Source of the DNA: Planotetraspora sp. A-T 1434
Lineage (GTDB): Bacteria; Actinomycetota; Actinomycetes; Streptosporangiales; Streptosporangiaceae
Assembly: GCF_025420585.1 (NCBI RefSeq)
Contig: NZ_JAOEGB010000003.1
Coordinates: 62,001-126,000 of the forward strand
Direction: 5' to 3'
DNA length: 64,000 bases
The notes under the pieces are model-generated. The model did not search any database. It was not told where the DNA came from and saw only the letters and a list, made by a program, of their open reading frames with translations. A program made the position numbers and the translations under genes. Shown piece after piece: positions 20,903-42,200 of the stretch (the stretch's first letter is position 1; every line of letters starts with the position of its first letter).

Positions 20903-21607
20903 TCATCGTGCGCGGGTGGTGAGACCCCGGATGGTCAGGTCGACCAGCTGGCGGAGACGGGTGTGCAGAACCTCCGGGGCGGCCTGCTCCTGCGCGATGC
21001 CGGTCAGCGCGTCGACCAGCAGCACAGCGGCGTCGTGCGCCGACAGCGCGACGTCGAGCAGGTCGAGCTCGCCGGCGGCGGAGGTGAGGATCTTCTCCAC
21101 GATGGCGGTGTGCCGCTCCTTGAACGCGGCCGTGAGCTCCGGCGCGACCACGCCGGCCTCCGCGAGCATCTCCCCCCGGAACTCGGCCTCGACCGTCCCG
21201 ACGAAGAAGTCCAGTTTCACCGCGAGCGCGCCATAGAGCCGCGCCGCCACCGTGCCGCCCACCGTGCCGCCCACCGTGCCGCCCACCGTGCCGCCCACCG
21301 TGCCGCCCACCGTGCCGCCCACCGTGCCGCCCACCGTGCCGCCCACCGTGCCGCCCACTGTGCCACCCGCTGTGCCACCCACACGACCGGCCGCTTCGGC
21401 GGCGGCGAGCAGCCCGTCGAGCATCCAGGCGCCCATCGCCCGGAAGAGGTCGTCCTTGCCGCTGAAGTGCTGGTAGAGCGCCGGCCGCGAGACGCCGGCG
21501 GCCCGCGCGACCAGATCCATGGAGGTCCTGCGATAGCCGTACCGGCCGAAAACCCCGACCGCGGCGCTCAGGATCTGGTCACGCTTGGCATCCCTGGCGG
21601 CTGACAT
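20903..21607 (-). CDS. TetR/AcrR family regulator with expanded GGTV repeat
   Basis: This 234-residue regulator has a normal TetR helix-turn-helix at residues about 8-55, with RDQILSAAVGVFGRYGYRRT, LVARAAGVSRPALYQHF and SGKDDLFRAM. The C-terminal ligand-binding helices run from ARLYGALAVKLDFFVG to the end. Between the two lies a run of eleven GGT(V/A) units encoded by 12-bp tandem DNA repeats, about 44 residues that normal TetR proteins lack. It probably controls itself and the small membrane protein gene that overlaps its stop. An inverted repeat over its own start codon is the likely operator. Confidence 0.9.
   Translation of the reverse strand: MSAARDAKRDQILSAAVGVFGRYGYRRTSMDLVARAAGVSRPALYQHFSGKDDLFRAMGAWMLDGLLAAAEAAGRVGGTAGGTVGGTVGGTVGGTVGGTVGGTVGGTVGGTVGGTVGGTVAARLYGALAVKLDFFVGTVEAEFRGEMLAEAGVVAPELTAAFKERHTAIVEKILTSAAGELDLLDVALSAHDAAVLLVDALTGIAQEQAAPEVLHTRLRQLVDLTIRGLTTRAR
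21252..21383. repeat. 12-bp tandem repeat (11 units) inside TetR gene
   Basis: Eleven 12-bp units run from 21252 to 21383. The first eight are identical (GTGCCGCCCACC), and the last three carry one to three substitutions (GTGCCGCCCACT, GTGCCACCCGCT, GTGCCACCCACA). On the coding strand each unit encodes Gly-Gly-Thr-Val. The divergence at one end and identity at the other suggest recent copy-number expansion by slippage. Confidence 0.95.
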
Positions 21608-21709: not shown

Positions 21710-23101
21710 TCAGTCCGTACGGGCGCATTGGGCGGACGGGGTGAAGAGCCAGCAGCCTCTGAGGTCCTGGGCCGCCCTGCCGGTGGTCGCGCCGGAGACG
21801 AGCGGCGCGATTCCGGCGCGTTTGCTGACCGGCGGAGCGAACGCCCAGCTCGGCGCGGCGGGTGAGGCTACCGGAGCGAGGGGCGCCAGCGGCCGTCCGA
21901 AGAGGTCGGTCGTCCGTCCCCGCCAGGGCGCGAGGCTCCAGGTCGAGATGGCCGATCGGGCCAGCGGCGGCAGAGGCAGCACACCGTGCGGGGCGCCGCC
22001 CGGGAGGATCCCCGGAACGTCGCCGGGCACACCGCCGTAGCCCCCGCTGGGCGCGCCTCCGTAGCCCCCGCTGGGCACGCCGCCGTAAATCCCGTTCGGC
22101 ACGCCTCCGTAGATCCCGTTCGGGACACCGCCTGCGGTGCCACCCGGGAGACCGTTGGGCGCGCCACCGTAGATGCCGTTAGGCGCGCCGCTCGGAAGGC
22201 CGAAGGTCGGCGAGGGCAGGACGGTCGGGGACGCCACGGCAGTCGGCGTGACCACCGCTGACGGCGTCGCCGTGGGGCTGGAACCGGCCGCGGGCGGCTC
22301 CGGGTCCTTGCCGCCCTTCGGGGTGTCCGGCTTCTTGCCGGGATCCTTGGCGGTCGGCTTCGACGTCGGTTCGGACGACGGTTTCGATGTCGGCTTGGAC
22401 GTCGGCTTGGACGTCGGCTTGGACGTCGGCTTGGACGTCGGCTTCGATGTCGGTTTCGATGTCGGTTTCGAGGAGTGCTTCGGGGTGGGGGACGGGCTGG
22501 GCGACGCGGTCGGCGTGGCCGTATCAGTCGGTGTGGCGGTCGGTGTGGCGGTGGGGGTGGCGGTGGGGGTGGCCGAGGCGCTCGGAGTGTCGGTGTCGGT
22601 CGGCTTGGCGGAGTGCGTCGGCTGCGGCGTCGACGTGTCCGGGTCCGCTGATTTCGCCGCCGGCGGCTCCGAATGAGGTGGCTGAGAGGCGGGCGGATCG
22701 GAGTGTTGGGGCGCCGCCGACGACGTCGGCCCGGATGTGTGGGAGGGGCTGTCGGTCGGCCTGTCCGTGGGCCCGTCCCCCGGCCTGCCGGAAGCGTCCG
22801 TGCCGGCCGAGGAGCCCGGGTCCGGACGGGACGAGGCGTCACTGTTCTGGGACGCCTCCGGCTCGTGGCCCGTGGGGCCGGTCGTGGCGGCGGGGCCGTC
22901 GCCGGGCGGGTCGAGGGTCACGGTGGCGGTGGGCTCGGGCGCCCCAGGGGCGACGTCGTCCCTGGGCGGGGGGACATCCACGCTGGGGTCCGCCATGGCG
23001 GCCCAGGGCTGGGCGATGATCGCACCGGTCGTCGCGGACACCGCGGCCAGGAGGAGACCGGAGACGAGGGTGGCGCGCCGGGAGGAGATGCGTGGGGTCA
23101 T
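21710..23101 (-). CDS. Secreted Pro/Thr/Ser- and Gly-rich repeat protein
   Basis: The 463-residue protein starts with a signal peptide (RRATLVSGLLLAAVSATTGA, with cleavage expected after AMA). A Pro/Asp/Ser-rich stalk follows. Then come TATPT repeats, about ten KPTS-type tetrapeptides (coded around 22352-22476), and a Gly-rich block of repeated GG-x-PNGIYGG and PSGGYGG units coded around 22030-22190. The C-terminal 110 residues are less repetitive, and two Cys (DLRGCWLF and SAQCARTD) close to the end could form a disulfide. Such a stalk is typical of wall-spanning or glycosylated surface proteins. It is the last gene of the four-gene operon; no known family is recognised. Confidence 0.8.
   Translation of the reverse strand: MTPRISSRRATLVSGLLLAAVSATTGAIIAQPWAAMADPSVDVPPPRDDVAPGAPEPTATVTLDPPGDGPAATTGPTGHEPEASQNSDASSRPDPGSSAGTDASGRPGDGPTDRPTDSPSHTSGPTSSAAPQHSDPPASQPPHSEPPAAKSADPDTSTPQPTHSAKPTDTDTPSASATPTATPTATPTATPTDTATPTASPSPSPTPKHSSKPTSKPTSKPTSKPTSKPTSKPTSKPTSKPSSEPTSKPTAKDPGKKPDTPKGGKDPEPPAAGSSPTATPSAVVTPTAVASPTVLPSPTFGLPSGAPNGIYGGAPNGLPGGTAGGVPNGIYGGVPNGIYGGVPSGGYGGAPSGGYGGVPGDVPGILPGGAPHGVLPLPPLARSAISTWSLAPWRGRTTDLFGRPLAPLAPVASPAAPSWAFAPPVSKRAGIAPLVSGATTGRAAQDLRGCWLFTPSAQCARTD
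22352..22476. repeat. 12-bp tandem repeats encoding KPTS
   Basis: Units of the form GTCGGCTTGGAC/GTCGGCTTCGAT recur in 12-bp phase through this interval, and the central copies are nearly identical. On the coding strand they give Ser-Lys-Pro-Thr. Confidence 0.85.
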
Positions 23102-23113
23102 GGATGGCTCTTC

Positions 23114-23147
23114 CTCGATCTATGGGCTGGCTCGATCTATGGGGTGG
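23114..23147. repeat. 17-bp direct repeat pair between two operon genes
   Basis: CTCGATCTATGGGCTGG (23114-23130) is followed at once by CTCGATCTATGGGGTGG (23131-23147), 16 of 17 bases identical. The TAG stop of the upstream membrane protein gene lies in the second copy. This is probably a tandem duplication. Confidence 0.7.
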
Positions 23148-23892
23148 GCCGTGGACCGGTGAGGGGCTTCCAGCCCGCCGCGGCGAACTGGGGCGTTCCG
23201 GGGAGAGCGGCGGCGGGCACGGCGGGAGGCGTGGGATCGGGGATGTTGACCCAGTCCCCCTGGTTCGTGCCACGCATGTGGGGGAGCCACTTCATGAGGA
23301 GGCTCATGGCGTAGGGGCTGGAGTAGACGGGGCCGGTGTCCGTGGTCCCCTTCGTCGCGGTCACCTGCACGAGGACGCACACCTGGACCTGGTCCTCGGC
23401 TCGGGCCTGCCACTGGACGCCGATCGTCTGCGTCCGCAGGGCCGCCCCCTCAGGCAGATCGCCCTCCGAGGGGAGGCCCAGGGTTTCCCGCCATCCGCGT
23501 ACGGCGGCGCGTGCTCCGTTGCGGGCGGCCTCCCGCTGCTCGGGCGGCGCGTAGAGGACGGCCGCCTGCTCGGCCTGGGCGGCGTCCAGCGTCCAGGCGG
23601 CCTCCAAGGCGGCCGCCGCCGCGGACACGGCTCCCAGCTCGGTGCGCGGAAACCCGATGGGATAACCGCCGTCGCCCTGGTGCCCGGTGGGCGGAGCCAG
23701 CGCGATGGCGTTCGCGACGCGGACGGGCGCGGGCGCCGGAGCCGGAGCGGGCCCCCGGAGTTGCACGACGATGACCACGATGGCGGCGACCACCGTCACG
23801 GCCGCGACCACGAAAAGCACCGTTACGCGGGGGCTCCGCCGTGGGGCGCTCAGGTCCCAGTCGAGCATCGGGTCCGGGGTGACCGTGCCCAC
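23137..23892 (-). CDS. Single-pass membrane protein of MinD/ParA operon
   Basis: The 251-residue protein has a cytosolic N-terminus of about 22 residues, a transmembrane helix VTVLFVVAAVTVVAAIVVIV and an alternating Pro-Ala linker. The outer domain of about 190 residues contains AVSAAAAALEAAWTLDAAQAE, YAPPEQREAARNGARAAV, QTIGVQWQARAEDQVQVCVL and GPVYSSPYAMSLLMKWLPHM. The topology (short tail, one helix, NTF2-like-sized outer domain) resembles accessory proteins of actinobacterial secretion or conjugation loci, without a firm family match. It starts with GTG overlapping the ATPase stop as TAGTG. Function unknown; physical coupling to the ATPase is inferred from gene overlap. Confidence 0.8.
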   Translation of the reverse strand: MGTVTPDPMLDWDLSAPRRSPRVTVLFVVAAVTVVAAIVVIVVQLRGPAPAPAPAPVRVANAIALAPPTGHQGDGGYPIGFPRTELGAVSAAAAALEAAWTLDAAQAEQAAVLYAPPEQREAARNGARAAVRGWRETLGLPSEGDLPEGAALRTQTIGVQWQARAEDQVQVCVLVQVTATKGTTDTGPVYSSPYAMSLLMKWLPHMRGTNQGDWVNIPDPTPPAVPAAALPGTPQFAAAGWKPLTGPRPTP

Positions 23893-24872
23893 TAGTTGCC
23901 CCGGTCGGGCCGCTGCCCGAACGCCTGTCCCGCGGCGGCGGCGAGGCGGAGGTACGCGCCACGGGTGGTAGGCCGCAGCCGGGAGAGATCGACCTCGGCG
24001 CCCTCCTTGAGATGCGGGTCGTACGGCACGCGGACGACGGCACGGCAGCGCGTCGCGAAATGCCGCTCCAGCAGCTCGACGTCGACGTGTGACTTGGGCT
24101 CCACGGCGTTCAGCACGACGATGGCGTTCTTGACGAGGCTTCCGTACCCGTGGGCTGTGAGCCAGTCCAGCGTGGCCGCGGCCGAGCTCGCGCCGTCGAC
24201 CGCGACCAGGCTTACCAGCACGATCTGGTCGGCCAGCTCCAGGGTCGCCCCCATGGCTCCGTGCAGCAGCCCTGTCCCGCAGTCGGTGATGCAGATCGAG
24301 TAGTAGCGCTCGATCAGTCCGGCGACCGTACGGTAGTCCTCCGCGTTGAACGCCTCGCTGACGGCCGGGTCGGTGTCGGAGGCCAGGACCTCCAGCCGGG
24401 CGGGCGACTGCGAGGTGAAGGCACGGGCGTCGGCATAGCGGACGATGTGGGGCGCTTCGGCGAGCAGCGTGCGGATGGTCGCGGCCGTTTCGGACTTGAC
24501 CTTGATGCCGAGAGTCCCCCGGTCAGGATTGGCGTCGATCGCGATCACCCGGTCTCCCCGAAGGGAGGCGAGCGTGTTGCCGAGGGCGGCGGTCGTCGTG
24601 GTCTTGCCCACACCGCCCTTGAGGCTCATGACGGCGATGCGGTGGTGGCCACTCGCCACGGGCGTCTGCGCCTGGGCGATCAGCGTGCGGCGCTCCAACT
24701 CGGCGGACGACTCCGCGGGGATGATCTTCCCCCCGGAGAGCTGGTAGACGAGCCGCCTCCACCCGCCCGCCGGCTCCGCACGCCGGTTGATGAGCAGATG
24801 CTCCGCCGTGAGGGGCACCGACTCGGGGAACTGGTCGGCCGGAACGGACACTGGAGAGTGGATCTCTGTCAT
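23892..24872 (-). CDS. MinD/ParA-like P-loop ATPase (EspI-like)
   Basis: The 326-residue ATPase has GGWRRLVYQLSGGKI near residue 37, then the deviant Walker A loop SLKGGVGKTTTTAALG near 84. Next are VIAIDANPDRGTLG with Walker A' and the switch region, ITDCGTGLLHGAM, and VLNAVEPKSHVDVELLERHF. The N-terminal WRR segment plus this P-loop form is typical of the MinD/ParA-like proteins associated with actinobacterial type VII secretion (EspI type). No core type VII gene is in the window, however. The start is placed at ATG 24872; an ATG at 24908 would add twelve residues. It likely couples ATP-driven positioning or regulation to the membrane proteins encoded on either side. Confidence 0.88.
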   Translation of the reverse strand: MTEIHSPVSVPADQFPESVPLTAEHLLINRRAEPAGGWRRLVYQLSGGKIIPAESSAELERRTLIAQAQTPVASGHHRIAVMSLKGGVGKTTTTAALGNTLASLRGDRVIAIDANPDRGTLGIKVKSETAATIRTLLAEAPHIVRYADARAFTSQSPARLEVLASDTDPAVSEAFNAEDYRTVAGLIERYYSICITDCGTGLLHGAMGATLELADQIVLVSLVAVDGASSAAATLDWLTAHGYGSLVKNAIVVLNAVEPKSHVDVELLERHFATRCRAVVRVPYDPHLKEGAEVDLSRLRPTTRGAYLRLAAAAGQAFGQRPDRGN

Positions 24873-24914
24873 GGCGAGGGGGGTCCTTTCACAGAGCACG
24901 GATGACATGGGCTG

Positions 24915-26684
24915 TCAGCAGGTGCGCCACCGCACCGTCGTGGTGCTCTCGCCGCGGGGTCCGCGCAGGACCAACGGAGTCGTGACGGGGGCGGGCACGC
25001 CGCACCAGTAGCGCACCCGGAGGGCGCGCACGCTGATCACGTCGGTGTGTCCGGGCTTCAGGGTGCCGCTGGACGGCTTGATGGCCAGACCGTGGGCCGT
25101 TATCCGCCACTCCAGGGGCTTGTCGGCCGCCGTCAGCGTGATGCTGCCCCGGCCGAAGTCGTCGAGCGTGACGACCGTCGGCACCTGTACGCCGCCGACG
25201 ACCTGGCTCTGCGGAGTGGGGCCGCCGCCCTGCACGGGCACGCTGGGCTGCGCGGTCACGCTCGCCCGGCCCGGAATGGCGGTCTGCCCAGGAATGGCGG
25301 CCTGGGTGACGGAGGACTCAAGAGAGCGCGCGGGCTCCCGTGTCTGTGCGGCCGGGCTCAGGAGGTTGATCCCCGCCAGTGTGCCCGCCGCGCCCGCGAC
25401 GACCACGATGACGATCCTGAGGGTGGTGGTGCGGATCAGCGCACCGGCCCTTGTGAACACCTCCGCGATCCGGACCGTGACCCCGATGCGGTGCAGACCG
25501 GACCTGTCGCCGAAGTTCCCCACGTCACCGAAGTGCCCATCGCGGACGTCGCGGTCACCGAGCTGCGTCGCCTCGGCGGCGTCAACCCCGCGGGCGAGGG
25601 CCTCACGCGCGTAGATCTGGGACATCAGCGCGTCATAGAGCGGGGTGTCGCGCCCCGAGGCAGCCGGCGGATCCGCCGGGTGCACCGGACCCTCCCCCGG
25701 CCTCGCTCTGCGCGGCCCCTCCGGAGCACTAACCGGACGCGGCCTCTCGGGAGGGCTTGCCGTACGAGCGCGGTCTGTGGGAGGCGGCGCGGAGGCGGGG
25801 GGCGGCGCGGGCCGCGCGGAGGCGGGAGGCGGTGTGACCACTCCCGAGGGCGGCGGCTTCGGCTTGGTCTCCTCGGGCGCGACCAAGCCGGCGTCGACCG
25901 GGGCGGAGAGCGGCATGCCGAACGACGACGGGGGCCGCTGGACGCGCGCCGGGACCGTGCCAACGTCGGGGAGCGAATCGAGGAGACGCCGCCTGACCTC
26001 GGGCGCCAGGGCGGCGATCGGGGGATGGGAGAGGATCTGCGGCACCGTGTAGCGGATGTTGATGGGCCGGTTGCACACGACGCACTTGACGATGTGAGAG
26101 AGCAGGGCCACCCGGGCGGCGCCAGAGTCGCCCGCGGCCCGCCCTCCGGGCTCGTCAGGGAACAGGTCGGACACCAACGGCACGAGGTCGGGACAGATGG
26201 GACGGCCGCGGGCGATGCCGTCCAGTCCGCTGACGAGGATCTCCACCACGTCCTGCGTACGCGTGACCAGCCTGCCGAGCTCGCGCACGGGCAGGGACAG
26301 GACATACGACAGATCCCGCAGCGGTAACTCGTGGCGGTACAGCAGGCGCAGCGTTTCGGCGCCGAGCGGATCGACGAGCGTCCAGGCGCGCCACACCGCG
26401 CCGCCGTCGGGGGCGCCGGGTCCCGGACCGGGCCGGTACCCCTCCCGGCCGCCGGAGCCGCAGGCGCGCCGCAGCACGGCCAGCAGCCACGCCCGGTCCG
26501 TCACGTGCGCGGGCGGAGCTTGGACGCTGCAGGCGCCCAGGGCGGCGCTGACCGCCGCGAGCATGCGGGCGCCGTCAAGGTGGTAGGAGGCGTAGTCCAC
26601 CAGATGAGCGCCGTGTTCGTTCACCCAGGCCATCCCCCGGCCGGGGTCGAGCGCGATGTCCCCCGTACCGGTGGGCGCGCTCAT
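24915..26684 (-). CDS. Membrane protein with sigma-4-like helix, ZAS-like zinc motif and outer domain
   Basis: The 589-residue protein seems to combine parts usually found on separate proteins. Residues about 95-155 (RAWTLVDPLGAETLRLLYRH, ELPLRDLSYVLSLPVRELGR) resemble the region-4 helix-turn-helix of ECF sigma factors. Residues 197-204 read H-I-V-K-C-V-V-C, the H-x3-C-x2-C pattern of zinc-binding anti-sigma domains. A Pro-rich disordered linker (about 245-345) follows. One membrane helix (about 421-443, LRIVIVVVAGAAGTLAGINL) leads to an outer domain of about 145 residues with two Cys and an Ig-like strand pattern. It is first in the operon, 42 bases before the ATPase gene. Signal transduction across the membrane is inferred, not shown. 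Confidence 0.78.
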   Translation of the reverse strand: MSAPTGTGDIALDPGRGMAWVNEHGAHLVDYASYHLDGARMLAAVSAALGACSVQAPPAHVTDRAWLLAVLRRACGSGGREGYRPGPGPGAPDGGAVWRAWTLVDPLGAETLRLLYRHELPLRDLSYVLSLPVRELGRLVTRTQDVVEILVSGLDGIARGRPICPDLVPLVSDLFPDEPGGRAAGDSGAARVALLSHIVKCVVCNRPINIRYTVPQILSHPPIAALAPEVRRRLLDSLPDVGTVPARVQRPPSSFGMPLSAPVDAGLVAPEETKPKPPPSGVVTPPPASARPAPPPASAPPPTDRARTASPPERPRPVSAPEGPRRARPGEGPVHPADPPAASGRDTPLYDALMSQIYAREALARGVDAAEATQLGDRDVRDGHFGDVGNFGDRSGLHRIGVTVRIAEVFTRAGALIRTTTLRIVIVVVAGAAGTLAGINLLSPAAQTREPARSLESSVTQAAIPGQTAIPGRASVTAQPSVPVQGGGPTPQSQVVGGVQVPTVVTLDDFGRGSITLTAADKPLEWRITAHGLAIKPSSGTLKPGHTDVISVRALRVRYWCGVPAPVTTPLVLRGPRGESTTTVRWRTC

Positions 26685-29901: not shown

Positions 29902-31749
29902 TCAACCGACCATATACCCGGTTTGACCAGGTGAAAGGCTCCGGCATCTGCGGTGGGCGTCGTCGACCCGCTCGGTGATCCCCTTGCGGTCGAGGTGCTC
30001 CAGCAGGGGCACCGCGACCCTGCGGCTCGTCTTCAGGGCGGTCCTGGCCTGGCTGACCGTGAACGGCTGGGGCAGCCGGGCCAGCAACGCCGCCGCCCGG
30101 ACGTCCGTCCCCGGCAGCAGCACGATCCCGTCGGCTATGCGCAACAAGGCCCCGGCGCGTACGGCTGCCGCCAGCTCGCGAGGTCCAAGCCCCAGCTCTG
30201 CCAGCCGTACGGCCTCCGGCGCGAGGAAGGGATGCGCGGACAGCTCCGCCGCGAGCCGCTGGACCGCACGCGCGACCGGGGGCGGCAGGCCGGACGGGCC
30301 GCTGACGATCCGGCCGTCCGCGACGGTCGAAGGCGGTCGCACGAGCGCTGTGACGAGCCGCCGGTCGGGAAGGTCCAGCTCGTGCCGGGCGATCTCCAGC
30401 GGCATCCCGGGCTCCAGGGGGTGTTCGGCGGCGTATCGCCGTACGACCTCAGGAAGCCGCTCTCCCAGGCTCGACCAGTAGCCCGGGTCCGCGTGCCACT
30501 CACCGCACACCGGGCGGCCCGAGGGGGCGCAGCCCATGGCCGCCAGTTCCTCCGACCGGAGCAGACGATGAGCGCGCAGCAGGGACGCGGCGTCCGGCGA
30601 GGCCGTCTCCAGCCCGGCGGCCCGCTCCCGCGCCGCTCCCCTCCGGCGTAGCTCGGGCGGCCGCACGTCGAGAACGCTCGCCCCGGCAAGCACCCGTATC
30701 GCGTGTCCGGGGTCACGATGGCCGGGGTCACGATGGCGGGGGTCACGATGGCGGGGGTCACGATGGCGGGGGTCACGGCCGGGGTCGCGTAGCAGGAGGA
30801 CGTCTCCCAGGTGCAGCGGAAGCGGCCGGGAAAGGCGCAGGCGGGCCGTGTTGCCGCCCAGCGGGCGTACGACGCACCCCACCGCCGCCGACCCGATGTG
30901 CGCGGTCAGCCGCTGAGGCAGGAAGTCGTCCGCGTCCCGCGCCCGGGTGAGCCGCACGTCCACCAGGTCGGTGAAGGTCCAGCCGCCCGGCGCGACCAAG
31001 GCGTGGCCGCGCTCGGGCGCCACCCGTCCGCGCAGGTTGAGGGCCACCCTCGCCACGCCGGTCACGGAGGTCACCGGCTCCTTCAGGGACTCCATCGCCC
31101 GGACGCGCATCGGCTCGCCGTCCAGCGCGAGCTCGTCGCCGACCTCGATCCGGCCGGCGGGCAGCGTCCCGGTGACGACCGTCCCGCTGCCGTGCACGCT
31201 GAACACCCGGTCGATCCAGAGCCGCACCGGCGCCTCGGGGTCCGGCGCCGGAAGGGCGGCGACCAGCCGGTCCAGCGCCTCCCGCAGCTCGCCGAGCCCC
31301 TGACCGGTGCGCCCGCTCACCGCCAGCGCCTCCACCTGGCCGAGACCGCTCTCGGCGAGGCGGGCGCGCGCCTGCTTCATCGCGGGCGCGGGGTCCGCCA
31401 GGTCGGCACGGGTCACCACCAGCAGGCCCAGCCGTACGCCGAGGGTCTCCAGAGCGACCAGGTGCTCCTCGGACTGGGGCATCCAGCCCTCGTCGGCGGC
31501 CACGACGAACATGACGGCGGGCACGGGACCGACCCCGGCGAGCATCGTTCCGAGGAACCGCTCATGCCCCGGAACGTCCACGAAGGCCACCCGCTCCCCC
31601 GAGGGCAGCGTCGTCCAGGCGTAGCCGAGCTCGATCGTCAGCCCACGCCGCCGCTCCTCCTCCAGCCGGTCCGGCTCCATGCCGGTGAGCGCCCGCACCA
31701 GCGTGGACTTGCCGTGGTCGACGTGGCCCGCCGTCGCGACGACCTGCAT
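29902..31749 (-). CDS. selB: Selenocysteine-specific elongation factor SelB
   Basis: The 615-residue GTPase starts [20 protein letters not shown], with the P-loop at residues 8-14. [16 protein letters not shown] follows, then VVTRADLAD in the G4 place (TRAD instead of the common TKAD), and EF-Tu-like domains II-III with [15 protein letters not shown]. The C-terminal half holds the winged-helix domains that bind the SECIS hairpin, ending near [21 protein letters not shown] 31749 overlaps the selA stop (TGATG). A 15-bp tandem repeat adds a run of (R)DPRHRDPGH in the middle of the protein, outside known functional motifs. It delivers Sec-tRNA to the ribosome at the UGA of the formate dehydrogenase message. 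Confidence 0.95.
30709..30783. repeat. 15-bp tandem repeat inside selB
   Basis: Five units of 15 bp start at 30709. The first four read GGGGTCACGATGGC(C/G) and are nearly identical; the fifth is degenerate. On the coding strand they encode Arg-Asp-Pro-(Arg/Gly)-His repeats between domain III and the winged-helix part of SelB. Confidence 0.9.
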
Positions 31750-33059
31750 CAGGGACCCATCCCGAGGACAGCCGCGAGGACGGCCTTGACCACGTCGCCG
31801 TCCCATTCGGGCGGTACGGCACGCAGGTCCAGAAGGAGCCGGCCGCCTTCGACCCGGCCGACGACTGCGGGATCCCCGGTTCGCAGCGATACGGCGAGCC
31901 GTTCCGGCAGGCTCACCGCCGCGCTCGGCAGCGTCACTCCCGGCGCTCCGCCGCCGCCCACGGTCGCCCTTGCCGGTACGGCTCGCGCGTCGACCCCGGC
32001 TTCGGCGAGCCGTACGGCCAGAGCCTCGGCGCGGTCGCGCAGCGACGCAGCGTCGGCGTGCAACGCCTGGTGGAGGGGGGTGGCGGGGCCGCGCAAGGTG
32101 GCTTCGAGCGCGGCCAGCGTCAGCTTGCCGACCCTCAGCGCGCGGGCGAGGGGATGCCGCCTGCACCGCTCGACCAGGTCACGACGGCCGAGCAGCAGGC
32201 CGGCCTGTGGCCCGCCGAGGAGCTTGTCGCCACTGGCGGTGACCAGATCGGCTCCGGCCTTCAGCGTGGTCGCGGCGTCGGGCTCCTCGGGCAGCAGGGG
32301 CTCCCGCTCCAGCAGCCCCGAGCCGATGTCGGCGACGACCGGCACGCCGAGGCCGCCCAGCCCCGTCAGCTCCGCGACGTCCACGGAGCCGGTGAAGCCC
32401 TCGACCCGGAAGTTCGACGGGTGGACCTTGAGCACGAACCCGGTCTCCGGGCCGACGGCCGCACGGTAATCGGCATACGTGGTGCGATTGGTCGTGCCCA
32501 CCTCACGCAACCGGGCTCCCGTGGAGACCAGCAGGTCGGGGATCCGGAACCCGTCACCGATCTCCACGAGCTCGCCCCGGCTGATGACGATCTCCCGCCC
32601 GGCCGCCAGCACGGTGGCCACGAGCACGAGCGCGGCGGCGTTGTTGTTCACGACGTGCACGTCCTCGGCGGCGGGAACGGCCCGCGCGAGAGCGTCCATG
32701 GCGCCCCGCCCACGACGGGCCCTCGCCCCCGTGGTCAGGTCGAACTCCACGTCTGCCGGACCCGCCGTGGCGACGACCGCCTCGATCGCCGCCGGTGACA
32801 GGGGAGCCCGGCCGAGGTTGGTGTGGAGCAGCACGCCCGTCATATTGATCACAGGACGGATGCTCGCCGCATGCCGGGGCAGAGCCGCGAAGGCCACGTC
32901 GGCGACATCCTCCGGCTCGATCTCGCCCTGCCGTGCCCGGTGCTGCGCCCGCGCGACCGTGTCCTTGACGACGGCCCGGCCGAGCCGCTCCGCCATCGCG
33001 GTGAGGCGGGGATCGGCCAGCACGGCGTCAGTGCGAGGCACCCGCCTCCGTCGGTCCAC
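31749..33059 (-). CDS. selA: L-seryl-tRNA(Sec) selenium transferase SelA
   Basis: The 436-residue PLP enzyme has the N-terminal segment [32 protein letters not shown] follows near residue 70. The central region has [16 protein letters not shown] and [16 protein letters not shown]. The cofactor lysine is K279 in [16 protein letters not shown]. The length is slightly below the bacterial norm of about 460 but all core motifs are present. It converts Ser-tRNA(Sec) to Sec-tRNA(Sec) with selenophosphate. It starts with GTG 33059 and its stop overlaps the selB ATG. The tRNA substrate and selD lie about 3 kb away beyond two unrelated genes. Confidence 0.95.
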
Positions 33060-36019: not shown

Positions 36020-36112
36020 CGGAGGCGGACGGGAATCGAACCCGCCAGGCCGAGGACCTCGGCCTCGTTGGTTTTGAAGACCACGGGGGCCACCAGGCGC
36101 CCAGACGCCTCC
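36020..36112 (-). tRNA. selC: tRNA-Sec (anticodon UCA)
   Basis: Read on the minus strand from 36112, GGAGGCG pairs with CGCCTCC at the 3' end to form the acceptor stem. A D-arm, an anticodon arm with loop CTTCAAA (anticodon TCA), a long variable arm (GAGGCCGAG/CTCGGCCT) and a T-arm with TTCGATT between GCGGG and CCCGT follow. The size (93 nt), the long extra arm and the UCA anticodon identify it as selenocysteine tRNA. CCA is not encoded. It lies between the nucleotidyltransferase gene and selD, transcribed against both. Confidence 0.95.
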
Positions 36113-36181
36113 ATGAAGAAAGTTAGCCCGAAGTGGGTAGGGCTGCTGCGGCGCCCCTGGACGGCGGCGTGCCATCGATTT

Positions 36182-36255
36182 CCAAGAACCTGGCCAAGAA
36201 CCTGGCCAAGAACCTGGCCAAGAACCTGGCCAAGAAACCGCGCCAAGAAACCGGG
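36182..36255. repeat. 12-bp tandem repeat between tRNA-Sec and selD
   Basis: Four perfect copies of CCAAGAACCTGG run from 36182 to 36229. Two degenerate copies (CCAAGAAACCG...) follow, ending about 20 bases before the selD start. The repeats could fold or alter spacing in the selD leader. Confidence 0.9.
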
Positions 36256-36274
36256 CCAGAACGCGAGGGGCGGG

Positions 36275-37291
36275 ATGACAGGAGCCACGGCGGAGCCGGC
36301 CACGATCCGGCTGACGCAGTACGCGCACGGCGGCGGCTGTGCGTGCAAGATCCCGCCAGGCGAGCTGGAGGCCATCGTCGCCCGCCTTGTCGACGGCGGG
36401 GTGGCATCTTCCGAGGGTGAGCTGGTCATAGGACTGGACGACGGGGACGACGCGGCCGTGGTCCGCATCGAGGGCGGCCGGGCGGTGGTGGCCACGGCCG
36501 ACTTCTTCACCCCCGTCGTGGACGACCCGTACGACTGGGGGCGGATCGCTGCCACGAACGCCCTGTCGGACGTGTATGCGGTGGGCGGCGAGCCGCTGGT
36601 CGCGGTGAACCTCCTCGGCTGGCCACGCGACACGCTGCCGATGGAGTTGGTCACGGAGGTGCTGCGCGGCGGCCTCGACGTCGCGCGGGCCGCCCGCTGC
36701 CATGTGGCGGGCGGCCACAGCGTGGACGACCCCGAACCCAAGTACGGCATGGCGGTGACCGGGCTGGCCGATCCCGAGCGGTTGCTGCGCATCGACGCGG
36801 GGCGGCCGGGGCTGCCGATCTCCCTGACCAAGCCTCTCGGCGTCGGTGTGCTCAACACCCGGCACAAGGCAACCGGAGAGGTGTTCCCACAGGCCATCAC
36901 GGCGATGACCACGCTCAACAGCGACGCCTCGCGGGCCGCTCTGGCGGCCGGAGCCCAATGCGCCACCGATGTGACCGGGTTCGGGCTGCTCGGGCACCTC
37001 TTCAAGCTGGCCAGGGCGAGCGGCGTCACGGCGGTGGTCGACGTGACGGCCGTGCCGTACCTGGAGGACGCCCGTGAGGCGCTCAGGGACGGCTACGTCA
37101 GCGGCGGCACGCGGCGCAACCTGGCCTGGGTGGAGCCCCACCTCGACCCTGGACGGTTCGAGGAGGACGATCTGCTGCTGCTCGCCGACGCCCAGACCTC
37201 CGGCGGCCTGCTGATCGCGGGGGAGATCCCCGGAGCGCCGATCATCGGCGAACTGATCCCGCAGGAAGACGCCGCCCTCCGTCTCCGCTGA
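36275..37291 (+). CDS. selD: Selenide, water dikinase SelD
   Basis: The 338-residue enzyme starts with the selenide-handling loop RLTQYAHGGGCACKIPP, in which C22 and K25 correspond to E. coli C17 and K20. GLDDGDDAAVVRI carries metal-binding aspartates. DDPYDWGRIAATNALSDVYA, AGGHSVDDPEPKYGMAVTG and ATDVTGFGLLGHLFKLA follow the AIR-synthase-like fold. It makes selenophosphate from selenide and ATP for SelA. ATG 36275 follows GAGGGGCGGG. The same frame is open to 36068, but that would encode the tRNA antisense strand and the repeats, so the shorter start is right. It is convergent with the formate dehydrogenase operon. Confidence 0.95.
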   Translation: MTGATAEPATIRLTQYAHGGGCACKIPPGELEAIVARLVDGGVASSEGELVIGLDDGDDAAVVRIEGGRAVVATADFFTPVVDDPYDWGRIAATNALSDVYAVGGEPLVAVNLLGWPRDTLPMELVTEVLRGGLDVARAARCHVAGGHSVDDPEPKYGMAVTGLADPERLLRIDAGRPGLPISLTKPLGVGVLNTRHKATGEVFPQAITAMTTLNSDASRAALAAGAQCATDVTGFGLLGHLFKLARASGVTAVVDVTAVPYLEDAREALRDGYVSGGTRRNLAWVEPHLDPGRFEEDDLLLLADAQTSGGLLIAGEIPGAPIIGELIPQEDAALRLR

Positions 37292-37391
37292 ACTGCCCGC
37301 AACCGAACCGCCCGAGACTCGGCCCCGGACTATGTGCCATCCGGCGGCCTCCCCTGGGCCTGACGTGGAAGACGGTCATCTCCCGGCCAGT

Positions 37392-37425
37392 GCATGATCA
37401 CAGATCCCGGCGGTGCTGATCACGG
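37392..37425. repeat. Partial GCATGATCAC element at the end of the formate dehydrogenase operon
   Basis: GCATGATCAC (37392-37401) and a second TGATCACGG (37417-37425) lie in the gap between the convergent selD and NrfD-like genes. The latter contains the NrfD stop codon, as the ROK stop does at 2283. The 53-nt unit itself is not conserved here. Confidence 0.4.
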
Positions 37426-38424
37426 CGGAGGGGCGGCGGGGTCGGGGACGACGGTGAGCCTTCTGGCTTCGGCGCGCTCTCGCTGCGGAACGACCGTGTA
37501 GCGAGGGTCGGCGGCCGAGGTGCGGCCCGCCTCCAGCAGGCCGAAGCGGGTGCACAGGGCGCCTGCCGTGATGGCGAGCCCGGACAGCGCGGTGAGCGCG
37601 CGGCTGCGGCCGGCGATGGGCGCGAGCAGGCCGCCTCCCAGCGTGAGGACACGGGACGCCTTCATGAGGAGGCCGGCCTTGCCCCGCCGGTACGGCTCAC
37701 CCTCCAGGCCGAGGCGGCTTTCCATCACGATGCCCGCGGCCGTCTCCATGACAGCGCCCAGAGCGGCGGACGCGCGGGCGGGGGCGGCCTCGGCCCTGGG
37801 AGTGCTGAGCATTCCGACCGCGCCCGCGCTCGCCAGGGCGCTACCGGCGAACAGGAACGGCAGCTCGCGGTAGGCCTCGTGCCACGCGGGCACGGCGGTG
37901 TCGGCGAGCAGCACGGCGGTGTAGGTCGCCATGATCGGGCCGGTCACCGCGCTCGCCATGGCGGAAGCATCGCCTATGAACGGCAGGACGCGGCCGCCCA
38001 GGCAGCCGGGCAGGATGCGGCTCACCATGGGAGCCGGCAGCAGAGGCGTGACCGCAGCGGCGGCGGCGATCGCCGTCAGCCCGCCGTGAGCGGCCAGGGT
38101 CCACGAGCCGACGCTCATCGGGGAGGTGAACTTGAGGAGCCGAAGCATGTTCAGAAACCGCTCGGGCCGGCCCAGCTCCGTCACCAGGAAGACGGAGCCG
38201 GCGCTCGCGCCCACGAAGGCCGCCATCCGGGACGCGGCGCCCAGCCGTTCGTGTCCGGAGAGGTGTGCCGTGGCGGCCAGAACCGACGCCGCGCCGGAAA
38301 GACCACCCAAATAGAGGTACGCCGGCATGTGGGGCTCGTGCCAGATCGGCGGCTTGATCACAGGCTGCCCGTAGTAGGACCGGAATCCGGCCTCCGGCAC
38401 CATCTCGTCCTGACGTCTGGCCAC
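37420..38424 (-). CDS. NrfD/PsrC-like membrane subunit of formate dehydrogenase
   Basis: The 334-residue integral membrane protein has about eight hydrophobic helices. The first part reads YGQPVIKPPIWHEPHMPAYL and YLGGLSGAASVLAATAHLSG. LLKFTSPMSVGSWTLAAHGG carries the SPMSxGSW motif of NrfD/PsrC proteins, which hand electrons to the quinone pool. It starts with GTG 38424, three bases after the iron-sulfur subunit gene, and is the last gene of the operon. It likely anchors the formate dehydrogenase and couples formate oxidation to menaquinone reduction. Confidence 0.9.
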   Translation of the reverse strand: MARRQDEMVPEAGFRSYYGQPVIKPPIWHEPHMPAYLYLGGLSGAASVLAATAHLSGHERLGAASRMAAFVGASAGSVFLVTELGRPERFLNMLRLLKFTSPMSVGSWTLAAHGGLTAIAAAAAVTPLLPAPMVSRILPGCLGGRVLPFIGDASAMASAVTGPIMATYTAVLLADTAVPAWHEAYRELPFLFAGSALASAGAVGMLSTPRAEAAPARASAALGAVMETAAGIVMESRLGLEGEPYRRGKAGLLMKASRVLTLGGGLLAPIAGRSRALTALSGLAITAGALCTRFGLLEAGRTSAADPRYTVVPQRERAEARRLTVVPDPAAPPP

Positions 38425-38427
38425 GAC

Positions 38428-39219
38428 TCACCGCCTTCTCAGGAAGGACGCCTGCAAGAAGGGCACCCTTGGGAACGACACCCTCAGGAACGACACCGCC
38501 ACCGCACCGGCCAGCGTGAGGGCCGCGCCGCCGGCCCATCGCCACATGTCGGGCAGGTCGCGGGTGGTGACGACCGGGTCGGGCGGCAAGCCGTACGTCT
38601 CGGGCTCGTCGAGGAGCAGGAAGAACGCGCCGTCGCCGCCCACGCCGTCGTCGGGGCTCTCGCCGTACAGCCGGGCCTCGAGCACACCGTCCGCGTGCAG
38701 CCGCTCGACCCGTGCCTCCGCCCGCTCCCGGAGCTCGTCCAGCGGGCCGAACTGGATCGAGTCGGTCGGGCAGGCCTTCGCGCAGGCGGGCTCCATCCCA
38801 CCGCGCAGGCGGTCGTAGCACATCGTGCACTTCCAGGCCCGGCCGTCGCGCTCTCGACGGTCGATGACGCCGTAGGGGCAGGCCGGGACGCAGTAGCCGC
38901 AGCCGTTGCAGATGTCCGGCTGGACGACGACCGTGTCGAACTCCGTGCGGAACAGCGCGCCCGTCGGACACACGTCGAGGCAGGCGGCCTGCGTGCAGTG
39001 CTTGCACACGTCGGACGACATCAGCCACCTGCCGTCCTGCTCGATGAAGGCGACGTGCCGCCAGGTGTCCGCGCCGAGACTTCCGGTGTTGTCGTAGGAG
39101 GTCGCCCGGAAGACGAACCCGTCGTCGGGCACGTCGTTCCACTCCTTGCACGCGACCTCGCAGGCCTTGCAGCCGATGCACACGCTCGTGTCGGTGAAGA
39201 AGCCCATCCGCTCAGCCAT
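38428..39219 (-). CDS. Formate dehydrogenase iron-sulfur subunit
   Basis: The 263-residue protein has four ferredoxin-type cysteine groups: SVCIGCKACEVACKEWNDVP, VCKHCTQAACLDVCPTGAL, ICNGCGYCVPACPYGVI and KCTMCYDRLRGGMEPACAKACPTD. It ends in one membrane helix (WAGGAALTLAGAVAVSFL). This is the FdnH/FdoH pattern: four [4Fe-4S] clusters passing electrons from the catalytic to the membrane subunit. It overlaps the catalytic subunit gene by eight bases and precedes the NrfD-like gene. Confidence 0.94.
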   Translation of the reverse strand: MAERMGFFTDTSVCIGCKACEVACKEWNDVPDDGFVFRATSYDNTGSLGADTWRHVAFIEQDGRWLMSSDVCKHCTQAACLDVCPTGALFRTEFDTVVVQPDICNGCGYCVPACPYGVIDRRERDGRAWKCTMCYDRLRGGMEPACAKACPTDSIQFGPLDELRERAEARVERLHADGVLEARLYGESPDDGVGGDGAFFLLLDEPETYGLPPDPVVTTRDLPDMWRWAGGAALTLAGAVAVSFLRVSFPRVPFLQASFLRRR

Positions 39220-42200
39220 GGCGGTACCTCTCGATCAGGTCGAGCAGCGCCCTGCCGTGGGGCCGCCTGCCCGGCAGAATGTCGCACGTGCCGGCCTTGC
39301 TCTCCTGGATGAAGACGTTCGGGTCGAGCACGATCGGCATCAGGTCGTTGGGCACGTCGCCGGTGACCATTCCCCCGCCGCCGTAGCCCCAGTGGTACGG
39401 CACGCCGATCTGGTGCACGACTTTGCCCGCGATCCGGAGCGGCCTGACTCTCTCAGTGACCAGGACGCGCAGCTCGATCGCCGTCCGCGCCGTCACGATC
39501 GTCGCCCAGCCGCCGTTGACCAGCCCGACCTCGGCGGCGAGCCGCGGCGACACCTCGCAGAACGGCGCGGGCTGGAGCTCGGCGAGGTACGGCAGGGGCC
39601 GGCTCATCCCCCCGGCGGTGTGGTGCTCGGTGAGCCGGTAGGTCGTGAAGACGTACGGGAACCGCGACGACATCGGAGGGTTGTACGGGTTCTCCGGGCG
39701 GTCGAGGATCCGTCGTGCCGGGTTGGCCCGCTGGCCGTACAACGTGTTGGGCACCGGCGACTCGTGCGGCTCGTAGTGCGCCGGGAGCGGCCCGTCGGAC
39801 AGCCCGGACGGGACGAACAGCCAGCCCTTGCCGTCCGACTGCATGATGAACGGGTCGGTCCCGGCGAGCGCCGCCTCCGCCCTGGCCCCCTCGGGCGGCC
39901 GGTAGTCCGGCGGCATGTGCTCATCGAAGTCCGGAATGTCGAGCCCGGTCCACAGGCCCTTGTCCGCGTCCCACCAGACGTACGCCTTGCGCTCGCTCCA
40001 CGGGCGGCCGTCCGGGTCGGCCGAGGCGCGGTTGTAGAGGATGCGCCGGTTGGCGGGCCACGCCCAGCCCCACTCGGGCGCGATCCAGGACTGCTCGCTC
40101 CCCGGTCTGCGCCGGGCCGCCTGGTTGACCTCGCCGGCGTAGACCCCGCAGTAGATCCAGCAGCCGCAGGTCGTGGACCCGTCGGGCTTGAGCTGCCTCA
40201 GGGACGACAGCGCCCGCCCGTCGGGGCCGGTGCCGTTGATCTCCCGGAGCACGGCCGCCGCCGAAGGCTCCCGGTGCTCTCCTTCTTCGGGATAGTCCCA
40301 GGTCAGCTCCATCACCGGCCGGTCGATCCGGTCGCCGCCGAGCCGCTGCCTGATCAGCTTGCCGAGGTGGTAGTAGAACCACAGGTCGCTGCGGCAGTCG
40401 CCCGGCGGGTCGAGCGCCTTCTCGCGCCACTGGAGCAGCCGCTGGGTGTTGGTGAAGGTGCCCTCCTTCTCCACGTGGCTCGCGGCGGGCATGAAGAAGA
40501 CCTCGGTGCCGATGTCCTCGGTGCGCAGCTCGCCCGTTTCGAGCTCGGGGGCGTCCTTCCAGAACGTGGCCGTCTCGACCAGAGTGAGATCGCGGACGAC
40601 CAGCCAGTCGAGGTTGGCCAGCCCGAGGCGCTGCGCCTTGCCGTTGGCCGAGCCGACCGCCGGGTTCTCGCCCACCACGAAGTAGCCCTTGACGGTGCCG
40701 TCGATCTGGCCCATCACCGTGGCGTAGTGGCTGTGGTCGCCGGTGAGCCGGGGCAGGTAGCCGAAGCAGAAGTCGTTGTCCTCCGTGGCCGCGTCGCCCC
40801 ACCAGGCCTTGAGCAGGCTGACCAGGTAGGACCGCCGGTTGCCCCAGTAGCCTGTGTCGGCGCCCTCCTGCTCCAGGTAGTGGTCAAGGCCGTCGTGCCG
40901 GAGCGCGTGGGGCATCGCGATGTATCCCGGGAGCAGGTTGAACAGCGTCGGGATGTCCGTGGATCCCTGGATGCTGGCGTGGCCGCGCAGCGCCATGATC
41001 CCGCCGCCGGGGCGCCCCATGTTGCCCAGCAGGAGCTGCAGGATCGAGGCCGCCCGGATGTACTGCACGCCGACCGAGTGCTGGGTCCAGCCGACCGAGT
41101 AGACCCAGGCGGTCGTCCGCTCGCGCCCCGAGTTGGCGGTGATCGCCTCGGCCAGCTCGGCGAACTCCTCCTCGGAGATCCCGCACAGCTCGGCGACCCG
41201 CTCGGGCGTGTAGCGCGCGAAGTGCCGCTTCAGGATCTGGTAGACGCAGCGCGGGTGGCGCAGCGTCGGATCGGCGGGCGGCTGCGCGGACGCGCCGGCC
41301 CCGCGCGCGCCGTAGGAGTCCGACCCGGCGGCCTCGGCGTGGCGTATGCCGCCCTCTCGCGGCTCGCCCTCCCCCGGCTCGTCGCCCTCGTAGGACCAGC
41401 TCGCCGGGTCGTACCTCCGCGTCTCCGGGTCGAAGCCGGAGAACAGGCCGTCCAGGTCCTCGGTGTCCCGGTATCGCGCCGAGATGATCGTGGCCGCGTT
41501 CGTGTAGGCCAGCACGTACTCACGGAAGTCCAGCTCGTTAGCGAGGACATGGTTGATCAGCGCGCCGAGCAGGACGATGTCCGTACCGGCGCGGATCGGC
41601 AGGTAGCGGTCCACGGTCGCGCTCGTGCGCGTGAAGTGCGGGTCGATGTGGAAGACCTTCGCGCCCCGGTCGCGGGCCTCCATCACCCACTGGTAGCCCA
41701 CGGGATGGCATTCGGCCATGTTTGAGCCCTGGATGACGATGCAGTCAGAGGTCGCCAGATCCTGCTGGAAGCCCGTCGCGCCGCCACGCCCGAAGCTGGT
41801 CCCCAGACCGGGGACGGTGGAGGAGTGTCAAATACGGGCCTGGTTCTCGACCTGGATCGCGCCGAGGGCGGTGTACAGCTTCTTCATCAGGTAGTTCTCT
41901 TCGTTGTCGAGCGTCGCCCCGCCCAGACTGGCGATGCCCAGAGTCCGCCGCACCTCCTTGCCGTCGTGCGTCTGCTGCCAGGTCTCCCGCCGGGTACGGA
42001 CGACCCGGTCGGCGATCATGTCCATGGCGGTCTCGAGGTCGAGCCGCTGCCAGTGCGTGCCGTACGGCCGGCGGTAGAGGACGTGGGTCTGGCGGCCCGG
42101 ATGGGTGACGAGTTGCTTGCTGGCCGACCCCTTCGGACAGAGCCGCCCCCGCGAGATCGGCGAGTCGGGATCACCCTCGATCTGGCTGACCTTGCCGTCC

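Follow-up and report, generated by a model that had tools for sequence, protein, structure and literature searches.

The gene described here lies at positions 24915-26684 of a 64,000-nucleotide window from Planotetraspora sp. A-T 1434 and is read on the minus strand (26684→24915), as are all features of the gene and its operon given below. From an ATG start it encodes a protein of 589 amino acids (P0001), and the whole gene is supported by the open reading frame, coding-frame GC and orthologues. GC at the three codon positions is 0.74/0.59/0.88, a pattern of the coding-frame type that is reversed in an overlapping plus-strand ORF (25047-26327); we therefore rejected the reading that P0001 is a spurious ORF. 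From the N-terminus, the modules are a degenerate sigma region 2 (sigma-2), a sigma region 4-like domain (sigma-4), a zinc anti-sigma module, a Pro-rich linker, a transmembrane (TM) helix and an exported Ig-like domain. Sigma-like and anti-sigma modules are carried by a single ORF, as the initial annotation had proposed.

When searched against Pfam and NCBIfam, P0001 matched no sigma or zinc-finger model, including the TIGR02937 sigma domain. Pfam sigma models were not matched, even weakly, by any of 19 orthologues, and NCBIfam sigma models were touched by two of the 19 (best E 0.013), with none above cut-off. A search of PDB sequences with the orthologue profile returned nothing at E up to 10. 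The AlphaFold2 model of the cytoplasmic residues 1-246 was weak (mean pLDDT 55.7), and Foldseek alone gave no significant match to this model (best E 0.27). The significant profile match to sigma or ZAS families that had been looked for was not obtained with P0001 alone, and the homology was seen via intact relatives. Weak matches to DUF4795 around the zinc module (16 of 19 orthologues, best E 1.5e-4; P0001 below cut-off) were taken as chance or composition.

P0001 orthologues are one clade of Streptosporangiaceae. Scanning genome contigs with the orthologue alignment identified 18 loci in Microbispora, Sphaerimonospora, Microtetraspora and Streptosporangium, and of 61 family genomes searched by profile, ten contained a strong match (E below 1e-80). 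The set of 25 orthologues used below consists of the 18 loci, the window and six additional members from the 61-genome search. The clade was recovered with a support of 100/100, on a stem of 2.2 or 1.7 changes per column in two trees that also hold long branches for L052, L049 and L057. No description of this clade was found in the open-licence literature searched.

For comparison, 20 intact relatives were drawn from the 29 of 30 loci with a tblastn match (L054 gave none), after dropping seven without H-x3-C-x2-C (L039-L043, L050 and L053) and L031/L045, which represent one gene with a long insert. The genome that encodes P0001 also carries intact fused sigma/anti-sigma paralogues. One of them, P0002 (G000:C104:187184-188857), has 33% identity to P0001 over residues 28-238 and matches Sigma70_r2 (8.1e-7), Sigma70_r4_2 (1.7e-7) and TIGR02937 (5.4e-13) above cut-off, with zf-HC2 below cut-off. 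Three of the dropped loci (L040, L041 and L053), from three other family genomes, encode short membrane proteins that combine sigma region 2 with a DxxGFP motif and a TM helix, and in which neither H-x3-C-x2-C nor a region 4 was visible. Sigma70_r2 was matched by L040 (1.2e-5, above cut-off) and L053 (2.5e-4, below), the two that were scanned, and neither matched the region-4 model. These proteins look like the reverse decay, a tethered sigma-2 without sigma-4.

The sigma-4-like segment of the initial annotation was borne out at residues 94-160 (26205-26405, minus strand) by BLASTP, profile alignment and dN/dS. BLASTP aligned residues 110-237 of P0001 with P0002 at an E of 2e-9; the orthologue profile, in its C-terminal part, matched the intact relatives with p 4.7e-14. 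Region 4 is also the most constrained part of the protein, with a pooled dN/dS of 0.062 over eight pairs of related orthologues, against 0.265 for the zinc module and 0.412 for the Pro-rich linker.

The ZAS-type anti-sigma module follows at residues 161-239 (25968-26204, minus). H-x3-C-x2-C serves as a signature of the ZAS, or class I anti-sigma, domain in the accessible text of one report (PMC7406223). In P0001 the motif occurs once, at H197/C201/C204, where composition predicts 0.0017 occurrences. The likely zinc ligands are C164 (26193-26195), H197 (26094-26096), C201 (26082-26084) and C204 (26073-26075), all on the minus strand and all invariant in the 25 orthologues, so that the motif stands on the very conservation by which the initial annotation had proposed to judge it. 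The intact relatives were picked by H-x3-C-x2-C, and conservation of the H and both C residues among them is by choice; C164 was not selected for and is invariant in 20 of 20 of them too, so a four-ligand C...H-x3-C-x2-C zinc site is likely from the sequence pattern. Pfam and NCBIfam gave sub-threshold matches only: zf-HC2 (pfam13490) was unmatched by P0001 and reached by one orthologue at E 0.54, below threshold. Directly after C-x2-C, residues 206-216 (26037-26069, minus) read RPINIRYTVPQ in the alignment; RPI[NS]IRYTVPQ was present in 23 of 23 full-length members and was not seen in the 20 aligned intact relatives.

No region 2 had been evident to the initial annotation, and this claim fell. 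A degenerate sigma-2 domain lies at residues ~10-83 (26445-26657, minus, for residues 10-80), as indicated by profile alignment, fold comparison and a bridging homologue. Profile-profile alignment of 19 orthologues with the 20 intact relatives extended over 224 columns from residue 11 on (probability 98.8, E 1.3e-16) and covered the whole cytoplasmic part. Taken alone, the sigma-2 part (first 84 residues) scored 27.1, where the highest of 100 column shuffles reached 17.9, at a modest profile probability of 24.8%. Enlarging the set to 25 orthologues, with two more relatives, gave a score of 33.3 against a shuffle maximum of 22.2; the probability, 62.1%, is again modest. The bridging homologue L070 (G035:C37:229524-230174), from another genome, aligned with P0001 residues 21-234 at E 6e-18 and groups with the P0001 clade in the tree. 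Its region 2 is recognisable but altered and links the P0001 clade to intact fused ECFs; the operon ATPase described below was not found within the 16-kb stretch around it.

The fold comparison, which covers model residues ~10-87 only, returned sigma factors or PhyR sigma-like domains in its first 22 rows (Z 8.6-4.8, two PhyR chains among them) and an unrelated row, of helical proteins, first at Z 3.3, values to be read with the caution that helical bundles can reach a Z near 8 by chance. Row 2 is a transcription-complex chain that we take to be the sigma subunit of the complex. Were the N-terminal 80 residues of P0001 unrelated helices, with only the region-4-like HTH and the zinc motif real, as the initial annotation had it, the weak model and the lack of any above-cut-off match to sigma-2 in Pfam or NCBIfam would be readily understood. 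That reading is highly improbable, and we rejected it: the profile match is consistent in register and lies above all shuffles, L070 aligns from residue 21, and sigma-2 domains fill the top structural rows.

The sigma-2 domain of P0001 is present but decayed, and in this identification we have high confidence. Residue 47, the acid of region 2.2, is D or E in 19 of 20 intact relatives versus none of the 25 P0001 orthologues, which have A (16), S (7), G (1) or R (1). We take the role of this acidic position to be core binding. W at residue 66 is kept by all 20 intact relatives versus 14 of 25 orthologues, and several columns of the N-terminal helix are gapped in 19 of 19 orthologues in the alignment with intact relatives. 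On the other side, H24, H27, C52 and R72 are invariant among the 25 orthologues, and the pooled dN/dS of sigma-2 (0.299, a ratio inflated by a low pS of 0.110) indicates purifying selection.

These observations bear on whether P0001 is still a working sigma factor, in which a wall signal would lead to proteolysis, free the sigma part from the zinc module and direct it to promoters through a divergent sigma-2. The retained sigma-2 fold and the strong constraint on region 4 fit this reading, as does the module order, which is that of SCO4117-type proteins, for which proteolytic release has been proposed in the accessible text of the sources (PMC8999054, PMC5826349). The loss of the region 2.2 acid throughout the clade, of the conserved W in part and of a portion of the N-terminal helix argues against it, as do the long stem (1.7-2.2 changes per column) between the clade and the intact relatives and the failure of all 19 members to match the Pfam sigma-2 model. 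We consider a working sigma factor somewhat unlikely.

Downstream of the zinc module, a Pro-rich linker (residues 247-398; 25491-25946, minus), with 14-27% Pro in 23 members, probably lies on the cytoplasmic side. Hydropathy identified one strong hydrophobic stretch in P0001 (~422-443), and the single TM helix (residues 421-443; 25356-25424, minus) is predicted to run N-in/C-out. Beyond it, an exported Ig-like (PapD/MSP-like) beta-sandwich is predicted by the structure model at residues 498-589 (24918-25193, minus). Residues 490-589 were modelled as a beta-sandwich with a pLDDT of 83.9 that is similar to Ig folds of the PapD-like and MSP-like kinds (best E 6e-6). Both the single helix and the exported domain of the initial annotation were upheld. 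All 17 aligned sequences keep both C561 and C589, which are likely to form a disulphide, and 6 of 6 further tails (L072-L077) show the same C-terminal pattern. No Pfam carbohydrate-binding module was matched by this domain, and its Ig-like fold is too common to give a function.

The P0001 gene is the first of a conserved operon, in which genes for a MinD/ParA-like ATPase and a one-TM protein follow; most loci also have a gene for a secreted Pro-rich protein. The second gene (23892-24908, minus; homologues start at M13, 24872) encodes the ATPase, which matches CbiA (3.4e-12) and AAA_31 (4.2e-10) and has a P-loop with a deviant Walker A (KGGVGKTTT). The third gene (23137-23892, minus), with a one-base overlap at the end of the ATPase gene, encodes a 251-aa protein with one N-terminal TM helix. 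The fourth (21710-23101, minus), defined from the ORF and the comparison of neighbourhoods, encodes a secreted Pro/Ser/Thr-rich protein with tandem SKPT-type and PNGIYGG-type repeats that is very variable between relatives. All three genes were found with the P0001 orthologue in 16 of the 18 loci; the remaining two loci lie on contigs of 3.4 and 3.9 kb, and the ATPase gene adjoins the P0001 gene in every locus with enough flank. In the six further genomes, the genes for the ATPase and the 251-aa protein come next in 6/6, and tblastn detected the secreted gene in 5/6 (not found in L075). Among the genome-contig loci with the ATPase, identity is 86-93% for the ATPase and far lower for P0001, at 47-70% in best segments. 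Nonomuraea gerenzanensis has a 63% ATPase homologue and lacks P0001, so the ATPase does not need P0001 everywhere. No other sigma or anti-sigma gene was recognised in the conserved operon. ParA-like genes on plasmids occur in contexts too varied to offer a functional clue, and for the 251-aa gene plasmids yielded no more than two weak matches. The Streptosporangium loci carry two further genes upstream of the P0001 orthologue (L025:6594-10004). One of them (L025:6594-8012) matched the SCO2278 lipoprotein model below cut-off and the other encodes a one-TM Pro-rich protein; in Streptosporangium and Microtetraspora loci alike, the additional genes upstream had no Pfam match.

A sigma/anti-sigma fusion tethered to the membrane had been presented as an unusual architecture by the initial annotation. 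ECF48, ECF52 and ECF53 have already been so described in the accessible text of two reports (PMC8999054, PMC5826349): they are sigma factors with a C-terminal zinc finger plus one or two TM helices, and proteolysis is expected to release them (PMC8999054). SCO4117, an ECF52 protein of Streptomyces coelicolor, combines a sigma domain and a zinc finger with a TM helix, a Pro-rich region and a carbohydrate-binding part; differentiation is delayed when it is deleted (PMC5826349). The features listed for ECF52, a group given there as confined to Actinobacteria, are TIGR02937, pfam13490 after the sigma domain, a Pro-rich region between the TM helix and the exported domain, and smart00776 outside (PMC5826349). 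In these descriptions, ECF52 and SCO4117 resemble P0001 in being single polypeptides with a sigma domain, a zinc finger or module, one TM helix, a Pro-rich region and an exported domain. P0001 differs in that the sigma model is unmatched and that its main Pro-rich linker precedes the TM helix, joining it to the zinc module, whereas that of ECF52 runs from the TM helix to the exported domain; for these reasons we do not file it as ECF52. The exported domain probably differs as well, a modelled Ig-like sandwich in P0001 against a carbohydrate-binding module in ECF52 as described, and P0001 sits in a MinD/ParA operon whereas SCO4117 lies beside atrA. ECF53 and ECF48 share with P0001 the C-terminal fusion to a zinc finger and TM helix (PMC8999054), and P0001 differs from them in its degenerate sigma-2, a comparison made by group descriptions. 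P0002 resembles P0001 in its sigma-2, sigma-4, C...H-x3-C-x2-C, TM helix and exported domain, the latter with a short similar stretch. It differs in having sigma-2 and sigma-4 above the Pfam cut-offs, its Pro-rich part after the TM helix and no operon ATPase in a 19-kb stretch. What is new here is the branch, with its decayed sigma-2, constrained sigma-4 and ATPase operon, and not the fusion architecture.

We propose that P0001 is a derived descendant of actinobacterial membrane-tethered sigma/anti-sigma fusions of the ECF52/ECF53 type, and that it acts as a pseudo-sigma signal protein with the ATPase as its partner; taken as a whole, function included, this proposal has close to an even chance of being correct. 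The exported domain would sense or bind something in the cell wall, and the zinc module would hold the sigma-like part. With the core-binding features of region 2 lost, the sigma-like part would no longer initiate transcription and would be kept as a protein-interaction surface, probably for the MinD/ParA ATPase and one-TM protein of the operon. Against a pseudo-sigma stand the recognisable fold, the invariant residues and the purifying selection of sigma-2, and RNA polymerase may be bound through altered contacts. The partnership with the ATPase rests on gene adjacency, and neighbours in an operon need not interact.

A second use of a degenerate sigma domain is known from PhyR. PhyR is a response regulator with a receiver domain and, unlike P0001, is not known to have a zinc module, TM helix or exported domain. 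Its likeness to P0001 lies in the degeneration of a sigma-like domain: in these alphaproteobacterial regulators, according to the accessible text of one report, the core- and promoter-binding regions are degenerate and the domain sequesters the anti-sigma factor NepR (PMC8103513). The initial annotation had suggested a decoy or recruiter, and the decay of sigma-2 lends this some support. As a decoy, P0001 could titrate an anti-sigma factor through its degenerate sigma mimic, or its zinc module could sequester an intact paralogue by the latter's sigma part, so that wall signals would tune another sigma factor. The PhyR precedent, the PhyR chains among the fold matches and the intact fused paralogues in the genome are consistent with this. 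P0001 has its own anti-sigma module in cis, however, so a second partner is not needed, and the conserved operon offered no other recognisable sigma or anti-sigma gene; a decoy is decidedly unlikely.

The strongest form of our proposal, that in one bacterial family a sigma factor has turned into a receptor or anchor that serves a MinD/ParA-type ATPase at the membrane, with the sigma fold serving as an interaction surface only and gated by the zinc module and a wall-facing sensor, is itself unlikely to hold in full. If true, an envelope signal would control the positioning of the ATPase instead of transcription. Actinobacteria are known to have membrane proteins in which sigma and anti-sigma parts are fused, but these are hardly characterised. 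In the P0001 clade the sigma hallmarks are going, the region-4 and zinc parts are kept and a fixed ATPase partner gene has been gained. The clade is a natural test of which sigma-factor surfaces serve purposes other than transcription, with the intact paralogues and the bridging homologue as controls.

Elsewhere in the window, a TetR-type regulator that matched TetR_N (20903-21607, minus) has about ten tandem VGGT repeats in the middle of the protein. The regions 29902-33059 and 36068-41719 hold SelB-like and SelA-like ORFs close to formate dehydrogenase-like ORFs, apparently a selenocysteine gene group as judged by the translations, and the ORF at 39212-41719 may be the part that follows a UGA-encoded selenocysteine.
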